DNA from: Symploca sp. SIO1C2
GTDB lineage: Bacteria > Cyanobacteriota > Cyanobacteriia > Cyanobacteriales > Coleofasciculaceae
NCBI GenBank assembly: GCA_010672925.1
Contig: JAAHFP010000021.1
Span: 1-64,000 of the forward strand
Length of the DNA stretch: 64,000 nucleotides
Reading direction: 5' to 3'
Shown in pieces: positions 39,901 through 44,626 of the stretch. The position numbers were made by a program, and so were the translations under genes. Numbering within the stretch: the stretch's first letter is position 1; each line of letters opens with the position of its first letter. Below the pieces are notes generated by a model. It had not been told where the DNA came from, did not search any database, and saw only the letters and a list, made by a program, of their open reading frames with translations.

Positions 39901-40003
39901 TTATTTTAGATAATACAAGACGCGATCGCTTCCCTACCTCAACAGACTATTCTCTGTGGAATTAGCATCTTGCCAGTCACCAAGAGGGCAAAAGAGTAAA
40001 GGG

Positions 40004-42694
40004 TTACAGAGTCCACGCTGCCTCACACACTACACGAAAACCGATAAGGTCTACGTGTGAGTAGCTTGGAACATAGTTGAGGCGAGACGCAGAACGGCAA
40101 ACCTTAGGATAGTCGAACCAGGAACCGCCCCGCAACAGCCGACAAAGATTCTCATGATCACCCCTATCCACCCACGCATTACTATCTTTCGGCGCACCTT
40201 CATAATTATTATGCCAATGGTCTGCACACCACTCCCAGACATTCCCATGCATATCGTAGAGTCCAAAGTCATTCGCTACCTTAAAGCTACCCACTGGAGT
40301 TGTTTTCCCACGATATTTACCTTGGGAACCAGAACCATAAATATAGTTGTCATCATAGTGAGCTAAGTTGGTTGTAATCGTCTCCCCAAAATGAAACGGA
40401 GTAGTTGTACCTGCCCGACAAGCATACTCCCATTCAGCTTCACTGGGTAGCCGATACTGTCGCCCAGTTTTTAGAGAGAGGCGATCACAAAACTCTACAG
40501 CATCATACCAAGAGACTCCCTCTACAGGACGGTCTTCACCTTGAAAACGGGATAGATTGGCTTGAAGTTTAGTCTTAACTGGTGGCAAAGCAGCTACGAC
40601 TTGCCATTGTGCCTGGGTAATTGCGTATTTACCCATGAGGAAGGATTTAACTGTTACCCTATGTTGGGGAGATTCAGAACTACGCCGTTCAGGTTCGTCT
40701 TTTGGAGAACCCATGAGAAAGCTTCCTGAAGGAATAGCAATCATCTCTAACTCAATTCCATTCCCTAAGTCTTCAGTAAAACAATGAGCTTGTTGTTGGC
40801 GACGATGGATGGTTAGTTTTGTTGCTTCTAACTCAATGGTTGCTACGTCAAAATCAAAAGGTTCTAGCTTAATTTCTGGGGTTGATGTATCAGAAGACTG
40901 GCCTTCCAACTGTTCAGCTAAAGCAGCATACTCTCCTCCCAAGCGGTGCAAAACCTGGGTGGCAATCCGAGCAAAAGGCATTACTTCCTTTTCTGTAGCT
41001 TTATCCCACTTAGCATGGGGAGATAGTAGAGCAGCAAAATTATTCATCGATAAACCAGCGCGGCGAGCAATATACTGGGAGACTTTCTCTAGCACCGCAT
41101 CAACATCTGGAATTGGAACAGAGTCTACCAGTAAATTTCTGACTCCCTCAACAAACTCGTACTGTACAATCTGGTCAGAGCCAGGATTTGTCTCCCAGCT
41201 GTCGGAGGGCGAAGCATTTGGATTGTATACCTTGGGTTTCTGCGATAAATTATCCCCCAAATGCTTCGCCCCTACACCTCCTACATCAGATTGAGGTTGC
41301 AAAAGACCACTCATAAAAACTTCAGCAACATGAACCTGCCTAGACTCTGGCAACAAAGTTTCCTGGATAAGATAAACTACAGGCAAACTCACAGGAACTG
41401 CTGCCATCAATCCAGCTAAACGCCTTGCTATCGGTGATGCTGTTGTCCGAAATCGCTTTACCAAATCTACCGCAGATAGTTGCTCTTGAGTTGCTGCCGA
41501 AGCTTGGGGTAATAAAGATAAATCCCACAAAATCCCAGTGGTTTGGGTATTCCCTGCCCCAGCCACCACTCGTGACCATTGTTTGAGAGAATCAGGTTCT
41601 AAGGTAATTACAGGTAAATTGACGGCATTAGCAAGATTCACTTCTTCCCAAACCGGTAATCCCTCAACCACTAGTTGACTATTAGCAACACCTGGGACTA
41701 AAGAACTTAATTGAATAGGAAACCCAGCACCTAAAGCTGTTCGTCCCCAGATGCGCTCTGGCAAAAGTTGTAAAATCGCTACTGGGCCATGATTTGACCA
41801 ATGCTTTAAAATTTGATAAACCTTACCTTGACGCCAAATAGGAGAAATACAGTCGCTAATCAGCAAGATTAAGCGCCTACCTGTAGGGTCTAATAATTCT
41901 TTAAAACTGCGGGAACGTTGCTTTTTGGCAGAAAAGTTACCTTTAGGAATTAGCTTGATTACCCCATTATGATCAGTTTTTAAGCCCCAAGTGCGAACAT
42001 CTCGAAAAGCACCTTGGAGTTCAGTCAGTCTCTGAAACTCAGCAATTATTTCTTGCCAAATTACTGTTGAACCAGATTCTTCCACCACCAGTGCCAATTC
42101 TAACCAACGTTCCGGTGCTGGCTTGAGTACAGGTGTCCAAATCCCTTTTTCAGAAATTTGGGTAACAGTTTCTTCTTCATCAATAACCGTCTGAGTTGGA
42201 GAAGGAACTTTCCGCATCAGGGGACGCAGTGCCCTTGCTAAAGCCAGAGGTTGACGTAATGCTGGGGCAGCAGGTGCTTGAAAAGGGATACCTTCAGATA
42301 CCGTTTTCTTTGGTATTTTCTTTGGTAACTGATTCTCTGGGGAATCGGGAAGATAAGCAGAGGCGGCGGGTGGATTAGATGTAGTTTTTATCGGTGGTGT
42401 TAATGGAGCATCAGGAGGTGTTTTAGTTTCGGTATTAATAGCAGTCTGATGGTCTTGAAGCGGGATAGCATCAATGTTATCCACGAAATTTGAGCTTGTG
42501 CTTTGAAATCCTTCACCAAATGTGGATCTAACAGCTGTTTCCTTTGGGGAAGTTTCCTCAATCTCACGGATTTGAACAGCTAACCAGAGGATATCGGCAA
42601 TTTGTTGAGCATCTAAGTCTAATTCAGCCTGTTTTAGCAGAGAATTCAGTTGAGCAATACCCAAAGTTTCTGGATCCATCTCATATCTGGTCAA
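40004..42694 (-). CDS. SAV_2336-type protein with C-terminal FGE/C-type-lectin domain
   Basis: The protein has 896 residues. The N-terminal 60 residues are helical; a Pro/Thr-rich linker follows. Residues about 150-500 match the SAV_2336 domain of bacterial conflict systems (ALARALRPLMRKVPS, ERWLELALVVEESGSTVIW, RRLILLISDCISPIW, LGAGFPIQLSSLVPG). Residues about 660-896 are an FGE-sulfatase fold (IPSGSFLMGSP, YAITQAQW, RLPSEAEWEYACRAG, LYDMHGNVWEWC, LRGGSW, IGFRVVC). The reactive Cys pair of true formylglycine enzymes is incomplete near LRGGSW, so it is probably a binding domain. Its last part looks like a retroelement-diversified region (separate entry). A palindromic repeat is inserted in frame at 41207-41271. 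Confidence 0.82.
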   Translation of the reverse strand: MTRYEMDPETLGIAQLNSLLKQAELDLDAQQIADILWLAVQIREIEETSPKETAVRSTFGEGFQSTSSNFVDNIDAIPLQDHQTAINTETKTPPDAPLTPPIKTTSNPPAASAYLPDSPENQLPKKIPKKTVSEGIPFQAPAAPALRQPLALARALRPLMRKVPSPTQTVIDEEETVTQISEKGIWTPVLKPAPERWLELALVVEESGSTVIWQEIIAEFQRLTELQGAFRDVRTWGLKTDHNGVIKLIPKGNFSAKKQRSRSFKELLDPTGRRLILLISDCISPIWRQGKVYQILKHWSNHGPVAILQLLPERIWGRTALGAGFPIQLSSLVPGVANSQLVVEGLPVWEEVNLANAVNLPVITLEPDSLKQWSRVVAGAGNTQTTGILWDLSLLPQASAATQEQLSAVDLVKRFRTTASPIARRLAGLMAAVPVSLPVVYLIQETLLPESRQVHVAEVFMSGLLQPQSDVGGVGAKHLGDNLSQKPKVYNPNASPSDSWETNPGSDQIVQYEFVEGVRNLLVDSVPIPDVDAVLEKVSQYIARRAGLSMNNFAALLSPHAKWDKATEKEVMPFARIATQVLHRLGGEYAALAEQLEGQSSDTSTPEIKLEPFDFDVATIELEATKLTIHRRQQQAHCFTEDLGNGIELEMIAIPSGSFLMGSPKDEPERRSSESPQHRVTVKSFLMGKYAITQAQWQVVAALPPVKTKLQANLSRFQGEDRPVEGVSWYDAVEFCDRLSLKTGRQYRLPSEAEWEYACRAGTTTPFHFGETITTNLAHYDDNYIYGSGSQGKYRGKTTPVGSFKVANDFGLYDMHGNVWEWCADHWHNNYEGAPKDSNAWVDRGDHENLCRLLRGGSWFDYPKVCRSASRLNYVPSYSHVDLIGFRVVCEAAWTL
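40046..40117 (-). other. candidate DGR variable region (VR)
   Basis: After LRGGSW the codons are TTC, GAC, TAT, then fixed CCT, then AAG and GTT, fixed TGC CGT TCT GCG, TCT, fixed CGC, then CTC, AAC, TAT, GTT, fixed CCA, and further NNC/NNT codons up to ATC GGT TTT CGT. Most changed codons keep a final C or T where an AAC or AAT (Asn) template would be expected, which is the adenine-directed pattern of diversity-generating retroelements. The fold (FGE/C-type lectin) and the C-terminal position fit. No reverse transcriptase or template repeat is in the window. Confidence 0.6.
41207..41271. repeat. palindromic element inserted in frame within the SAV_2336 gene
   Basis: GGGCGAAGCATTTGG (41207-41221) and CCAAATGCTTCGCCC (41257-41271) are exact 15-bp inverted repeats round 35 bases. 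The stretch is read through in frame as part of GVGAKHLGDNLSQKPK... in a linker. This 'gaagcattt' palindrome is a common intergenic repeat type in filamentous cyanobacteria (from memory). Confidence 0.75.
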
Positions 42695-42947: not shown

Positions 42948-43502
42948 TTAGAGCTTTAACCAATTAAAAACCTGCTCAACCGTTAGCTCTAGTTCAATAC
43001 CGCTAATAATAGGTAACTGAGCCGTCCCCTTGAATAATTTTACTCGTTGCTCTGGGAACACGGCTAAAATACTCTCATTTTTTGGCTCCATTAACCACCC
43101 TAATTCTGTACCATGCTCAGAACAGTGCAGTAATTTTTCTAGTACTTTGGTTTGACTCTGGTCTGGAGATAAGATTTCAATAGACCAATCAGGATGAATC
43201 TCAAAGCGATTAGCAATTTTCCCAGAAGGAGTAACCGGAATTCTTGCCTACCGAAACACCGAAATATCCGGGATAACCGAGTCTCCACCAAAAGTACAGC
43301 GTAGTTCAGGAAATGCTCTAGCAATTTTTTGGGGTTTAGCTACTCGGTTAATTGCTTCACACAGTTCAACTTGTAGCAGACTATGCTCTCCTTGTGGGAT
43401 TGGTTTTTGAATAATCTCGTTGTTAATAAACTCTGAAGCAGGTTTGGTTTCTGGGAATTTTAAGAACTGCTCTAGAGATAGAGATTGCGTAGCTATAGTC
43501 AT
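42948..43502 (-). pseudogene. Uma2-family gene interrupted by an amber codon
   Basis: Reading from ATG 43502, 84 residues (LSLEQFLKFPETKPASEF ... VIPDISVFR) end at TAG 43248-43250. The same frame continues without shift: ARIPVTPSGKIANRFEIHPD, WSIEILSPDQSQTKVLEK, LELTVEQVFNWLKL, stop at 42948-42950. The combined 184 residues are a normal Uma2 protein. At the TAG position Uma2 proteins usually have Trp (VFRW-RIP), so TGG to TAG is the simplest explanation. It is either a recent nonsense mutation or a sequencing error. Confidence 0.85.
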
Positions 43503-44052: not shown

Positions 44053-44626
44053 ATGAAAACCAATCTTCTTGATACTTTAGCTCAACTCCCAGATTGTCGT
44101 GCTCCCAGAGGAAAACGCTATCCCTTATGGTTAATTTTGCTGCTGGTGATTATGGCAACGATGAGTGATTGCTATGGTTATCGAGCCTTGGAAGATTTTG
44201 CTCGTCGTCATCACCAAGCCTTGCGGGAAAGTTTAGAGTTACCACCAGTGGGTTTTCCCTCAGACTCGACTTTTCGCAGAGTAATGATGAGTATTGATTT
44301 TACTCAATTAGCCCAAGTTTTGACGAACTGGATTAGGGATAGGATGCCAACCCAAGAGGGTGATTGGCTAGGAGTTGATGGCAAGAGTATCAAAGGAACA
44401 TTGAATAATTATGCTCAAGCTTATCAAGACTTCGTTTCAGTAGTTTCTGTATGAAGATCGCTCCAGAATACAATTGGGTAATGCTCCTGCTAATCTCTCA
44501 ATGATTCGTAGTTTAGTCATGGCCATTTTACGCTACCATGGCTACTCTTCTATGACCACAGCAATTCGGTCGATTGCTCATGATCTAGAGAAGATTTTGC
44601 TGCTAATTGGGACTCAAAAGAGCTAG
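44053..44626 (+). pseudogene. ISAs1-family transposase, internally deleted
   Basis: The 5' part encodes 133 residues (LAQLPDCRAPRGKRYPLW, SDSTFRRVMMSIDF, WLGVDGKSIKGT with the first catalytic Asp) and then stops. A second piece in another frame encodes the C-terminal LGNAPANLSMIRSLV, AILRYHGYSSMTTAIRS and ends TAG 44624-44626. The middle of the DDE domain (roughly 150-200 residues) is missing, so no active transposase can be made. Confidence 0.85.

Follow-up and report, generated by a model that had tools for sequence, protein, structure and literature searches.

Does the C-terminal end of the SAV_2336-FGE protein of Symploca sp. SIO1C2 belong to a diversity-generating retroelement (DGR), and if it does, where is the machinery that rewrites it? 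The gene lies on the minus strand of a 64,000-nt stretch at the start of contig JAAHFP010000021.1 (assembly GCA_010672925.1), which is called the window here. The following features are relevant to the question.

40004–42694, minus strand: SAV_2336-FGE gene, coding for a DGR-type variable protein of 896 aa, with TTG start and intact open frame
41288–42613, minus strand: SAV_2336 N-terminal domain, residues 28–469 (NF041121, E 4.5e-141)
40028–40747, minus strand: FGE-sulfatase/C-type-lectin-fold domain (PF03781, 192.5 bits; predicted structure similar to PvdO, FGE, and TvpA)
40046–40117, minus strand: DGR variable region (VR) of 24 codons, from GGSW to IGFRVVC (codon-position signature and alignment to TR and VR of intact DGRs)
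39980–40003, minus strand: pyrimidine-rich tail CCCTTTACTCTTTTGCCCTCTTGG directly 3' of the stop codon (seen when 3' flanks were compared between targets and templates; putative role)

The window protein carries the FGE domain behind a SAV_2336 module that is probably vWA-like, and the whole protein may be a sensor. The FGE domain was modelled in AlphaFold2 with pLDDT 79 and pTM 0.82. Structural matches of the model include PvdO and formylglycine-generating enzymes as well as the DGR protein TvpA from Treponema denticola (2y3c, rmsd 2.8). The VR sits near the C-terminal end of the C-type-lectin-fold domain, with 13 codons from its end to the stop codon. Both the PF03781 match and the predicted structure agree with the position proposed in the initial annotation, a C-terminal loop of the C-type-lectin/FGE fold. 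The nearest homologue found for the N-terminal part is from Moorena sp. SIO3H5, with 78–79% identity. No homologue of an AAA (MoxR) ATPase was found in the window; at the homologous loci of Nodosilinea (L191), Moorena (L181), and G000:C186, an AAA ATPase is located directly upstream. Short ORFs near the gene, at 44053–44454 and 43248–43502 of the window, resemble a transposase-related fragment and a Uma2-like fragment, respectively, as judged by eye from their translations.

Codons of the form NNC or NNT between LRGGSW and IGFRVVC were the starting point of the initial annotation. The 24 codons were located exactly at 40046–40117, and 19 of them end in C or T, whereas the gene-wide share is 51% (binomial p 0.004); a count this high is reached in 1.4% of the gene's 24-codon windows. 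The NNY excess in the one window sequence is moderate and suggestive only, and with a p value of this size, a retroelement-free explanation, ordinary diversifying selection acting on a binding loop, has to be weighed as well. The constancy of the intervening codons, also claimed at first, is not visible in one sequence and was shown by comparison among family genes. In an alignment of 49 FGE genes from the family of the window, variable VR codons have mean entropies of 1.69, 1.52, and 1.01 bits at positions 1, 2, and 3, respectively, whereas the values for variable codons farther upstream in this domain are 1.36, 1.16, and 1.58 bits. The VR codons vary at positions 1 and 2 and retain position 3, which is the opposite of the remaining domain. 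This contrast gives p 3.6e-8 for the family (49 genes) and p 1.4e-4 for the 12 own-genome copies alone, both values being optimistic due to the kinship of the sequences. Between the window VR and the copy of a congener (G002:C1215), amino acids are common at none of the 13 variable codons, and third bases are common at 12 of the 13. Scrambled positions 1 and 2 with position 3 kept are the mark that random change of adenines in AAC/AAT template codons would leave, and third bases retained position by position, opposite to the remaining domain, contradict selection as the explanation. In third-base C/T conservation, no difference was seen between the VR codons and conserved twofold codons upstream, so the recency of rewriting is not arguable from that test.

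With a profile built from five cyanobacterial DGR RTs (reverse transcriptases), 97 further genomes of the order were searched, and 18 of them carry a clade-typical RT (569–706 bits). In the intact loci read in detail, the template (TR) and a target adjoin the RT, and templates have the general form RGGSWNNNPRNCRSAxRNNNNPDNRNNN.GFRV. When targets of intact DGRs of the order were compared with their own templates, 316 of 637 adenines were changed, versus 8 of 1482 other bases. Codon for codon, the window VR can be aligned with both the template and the variable copies from intact DGRs of cyanobacteria. Nodosilinea sp. P-1105 (L191) has the gene order AAA ATPase, SAV_2336-FGE homologue (889 aa), Avd, RT, TR, and second target, and all 18 in-region differences between its template and the VR of the homologue are at template adenines, with three more differences in border codons. 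As this homologue is a cis target beside the RT and TR, a protein of the SAV_2336-FGE type is a DGR target elsewhere. The variation of the window VR falls at template-adenine positions as judged against relatives and templates of other genomes, not an own template, and substitutions among relatives concentrate at positions of this type, as the expectation of adenine-directed changes had it. The coincidence of variable positions with template adenines of intact DGRs is a second point against selection.

A third one comes from the 3' flank. In many DGR targets, the stop codon is immediately followed by a pyrimidine tail such as CCCTTTGCCCTTTTGCCC, whereas templates continue into different sequence instead. 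The flank of the window gene is of the target type, TAACCCTTTACTCTTTTGCCCTCTTGG, with the VR-type tail CCCTTT...TTTTGCCC past the stop codon, and this tail is a possible target-recognition element. Diversifying selection by itself is therefore extremely improbable as the origin of the pattern, and the observation of a DGR-type variable region at 40046–40117 is confirmed by these sequence comparisons.

A structured conserved domain with the core GAAGAGTCCAGACCTGTTCC follows about 30–180 bases past each template of the cyanobacterial DGRs (L105, L106, L107, L109, L113, L191, and others). The template-RNA model computed from it, R1, has 151 positions and 32 base pairs and had no match in Rfam 15. 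It recovers all 18 RT-bearing genomes, many of which contributed to the model. The R1 domain is also present in a dozen genomes with no detected DGR RT.

In the own assembly, a draft of 245 contigs that is 8.67 Mb long and 97.9% complete, the RT profile gave group II-level scores only, and neither a DGR RT, nor a template repeat for the window VR, nor a template-RNA domain (R1) was found. The RVT_1 matches of this genome fall into three sorts (RTs of group II introns, short copies of the QG..SP type, and fragments), and none has the DGR motif. For Avd, there were weak matches only (24–26 bits, cut-off 40); Avd-like matches of up to about 32 bits were disregarded, except for target-adjoining Avd fragments in G002 and G015. 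Across the family of the window, DGR RTs were found in 0 of 22 genomes (own and 21 relatives), versus 18 of the 97 genomes from the rest of the order (p 0.02). Some relatives have RTs scoring 100–125 bits; these carry QGAVISP instead of the DGR motif, and the own genome has no counterpart of them. The RT matches inspected in G019, G017, and G010 belong to group II introns or to other non-DGR types. Viral contigs, as a putative donor, had no exact match to the template-like pattern or the TR-RNA motif. The initial annotation had proposed a template and DGR RT acting in trans. The identity of the VR is upheld by homology, codon signature, fold, and 3' flank, and the own-genome template and RT were not found. 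The absence of both from the genome, together with substitutions not confined to template adenines, had been named as the result that would speak against the proposal, and only the first half of it was encountered, so that the interpretation is partly supported overall.

Scars of lost cassettes were found in three genomes of the family. At G015:C249 (L211), a target and an Avd fragment with an in-frame stop are followed directly by the 3' domain of the template RNA and a second target, and the RT and TR are gone. At G018:C457 (L207), the VR is joined straight to the template-RNA domain, a junction that VR/TR recombination would produce, and such recombination may be a route of DGR loss. A template-RNA remnant lies about 2 kb past a target at G012:C140 (L206). 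In the congener G002, a target and Avd are interrupted by the contig end. Another match to the template-RNA domain (124.5 bits) is at 1501–1656 of G018:C179 (L212); the 1.5 kb to its left and right show no similarity to FGE, Avd, or RT.

Within the genus of the window, one VR ortholog group (G000:C157, G001:C470, and G002:C817) has a nearly unchanged VR with mostly third-position changes, and a second group (G000:C189 and G001:C59) likewise has near-identical VRs with mainly third-position changes; the targets in both groups are therefore frozen. The window VR differs from the family consensus, which is not a genus-specific template, in about six codons, including CCA for CCG, AGC for GGC, and GTA for NNC, and eight third bases differ between it and its own paralogue C186. 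Measured against the family consensus, these scaffold and third-base changes fit a stopped, drifting target.

The window VR is accordingly read, with good probability, as an orphaned and probably dormant DGR target, which was once rewritten, has lost contact with the machinery, and is now drifting or held fixed. This reading is based on the codon-position reversal, the comparison with G002:C1215, the VR-type tail, the Nodosilinea locus, the lack of own machinery, the scars, the frozen groups, and the scaffold drift. A DGR of the cyanobacterial type would have copied an AAC/AAT-rich template using an adenine-error-prone RT, and the copy would have been pasted over the 3' end of the window gene, so that the ligand-binding face of the C-type-lectin (FGE) domain, fused to the SAV_2336 module, would have been randomised. 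Later the gene would have lost contact with the DGR machinery, and rewriting appears to have stopped; the VR may now be drifting or be fixed as one chosen specificity. Against the orphaned state it counts that a cassette could be missed in a draft of 245 contigs, that orthologs in the Moorena group look recently rewritten, likewise with no machinery detected, and that the drift estimate is based on a family consensus.

The Moorena group comprises G008, G017, G019, G020, and G021, five genomes that belong to a different genus of the family; G021 matches the contig of Moorena SIO3H5. The flanks of its syntenic target loci are up to 98.8% identical, and the VRs of orthologs of equal length differ at 19–28 bases, almost all at codon positions 1 and 2. 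In the VR of locus A, there are 61 changes at positions 1 and 2 versus 2 at position 3, while upstream the numbers are 76 versus 63 (p 7e-11); locus B has 101 versus 14 (p 4e-9), and locus C has 41 versus 7 (p 1e-4), all three p values overstating the evidence since pairs have sequences in common. Four frozen pairs have a neutral pattern (7 versus 12). As the differences are almost exclusively at positions of the template-adenine type, rewriting, or import of rewritten copies, continued past the species split. No DGR RT, template, or template RNA was found in any of the five; two of these assemblies, with about 10 and 20 contigs, are nearly closed. In Fischerella, Nostoc, Anabaena, Acaryochloris, and Microcystis, clade-typical DGR RTs are plasmid-borne, so a cassette on an itinerant plasmid would be the simplest candidate for the source. 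That VRs of the family are still rewritten in this manner with no recognisable DGR RT, template, or template RNA, through a trans source (an itinerant plasmid or a donor strain) or an unrecognised enzyme, is a tentative possibility, and how the syntenic targets of the Moorena group kept changing is the question that these loci raise. Plasmid3 of Cylindrospermum sp. NIES-4074 (L184) encodes a window-protein homologue whose tail is VR-like, so targets of this type can be plasmid-carried.

For the window VR itself, continued diversification in trans, by a DGR missed in the assembly or coming and going on a plasmid or other mobile element, is unlikely. The Moorena-group loci with their 61 versus 2 changes, the plasmid-borne RTs, and the target and Avd ending at a contig edge in G002 argue for it, whereas no trace of an RT, a template, or template RNA was detected in the own genome, third bases and scaffold positions of the window VR have changed, and the genus includes two frozen VR ortholog groups. 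It is still less probable that rewritten 3' ends were imported by homologous recombination from DGR-bearing strains, in which case the VR would have been diversified elsewhere and the product alone would have travelled. Conserved flanks would permit such recombination, the Moorena-group targets vary with no local machinery, and in its FGE part, the window protein is nearer to a Moorena gene other than that of its N-terminal homologue (68% versus 66%), but a search for a donor sequence gave none.

Like the window protein, the DGR targets TvpA (Treponema denticola) and Mtd (Bordetella phage BPP-1) bear their VR within the C-terminal portion of a C-type-lectin fold. The two function at a surface or on a phage tail, whereas the window protein is fused to a SAV_2336 module. 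In BPP-1 the TR and RT adjoin the target; for the window gene neither was found. Vallota-Eastman et al. (PMC7517822) described cyanobacterial DGRs, their remote variable proteins, and a paralogue in Nostoc that retains remnant TR-VR homology with no RT in its vicinity, and Dore et al. (PMC10907252) described DGR targets of Thiohalocapsa that are best explained by diversification in trans. Cyanobacterial DGRs of clade 5E (PMC7517822; PMC10907252) have the FGE/C-type-lectin domain, the C-terminal segment, and the AAC/AAT-derived variable codons in common with the window gene. Their remote targets are merely away from the RT, whereas in the window case no RT or template was found genome-wide and no RT in the family. 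MoxR conflict systems with vWA components fused to DGR-diversified FGS domains were described by Kaur et al. (PMC7159879). In VMAP/MoxR ternary conflict systems (PMC7159879), a module precedes the variable FGE domain as in the window gene, and an AAA ATPase is present at homologous loci; unlike these systems, the window gene has no AAA partner within the window and no DGR. The window gene belongs to a known kind of DGR target, probably in an orphaned state. The case shows that DGR targets stay recognisable by their sequence even once the machine is gone, and the comparison of codon position 3 with positions 1 and 2 is a test that separates rewritten, drifting, and frozen targets.

Just 3' of the window gene, positions 39944–39981 contain GTGGAATTAGCATCTTGCCAGTCACC, close copies of which are at other sites in the genome. 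Several copies of this type, with spacing of about 106 bases, are at C186:39560–39801. Another target gene is also followed by such a copy, and the inverted repeat of this copy is cleaner.
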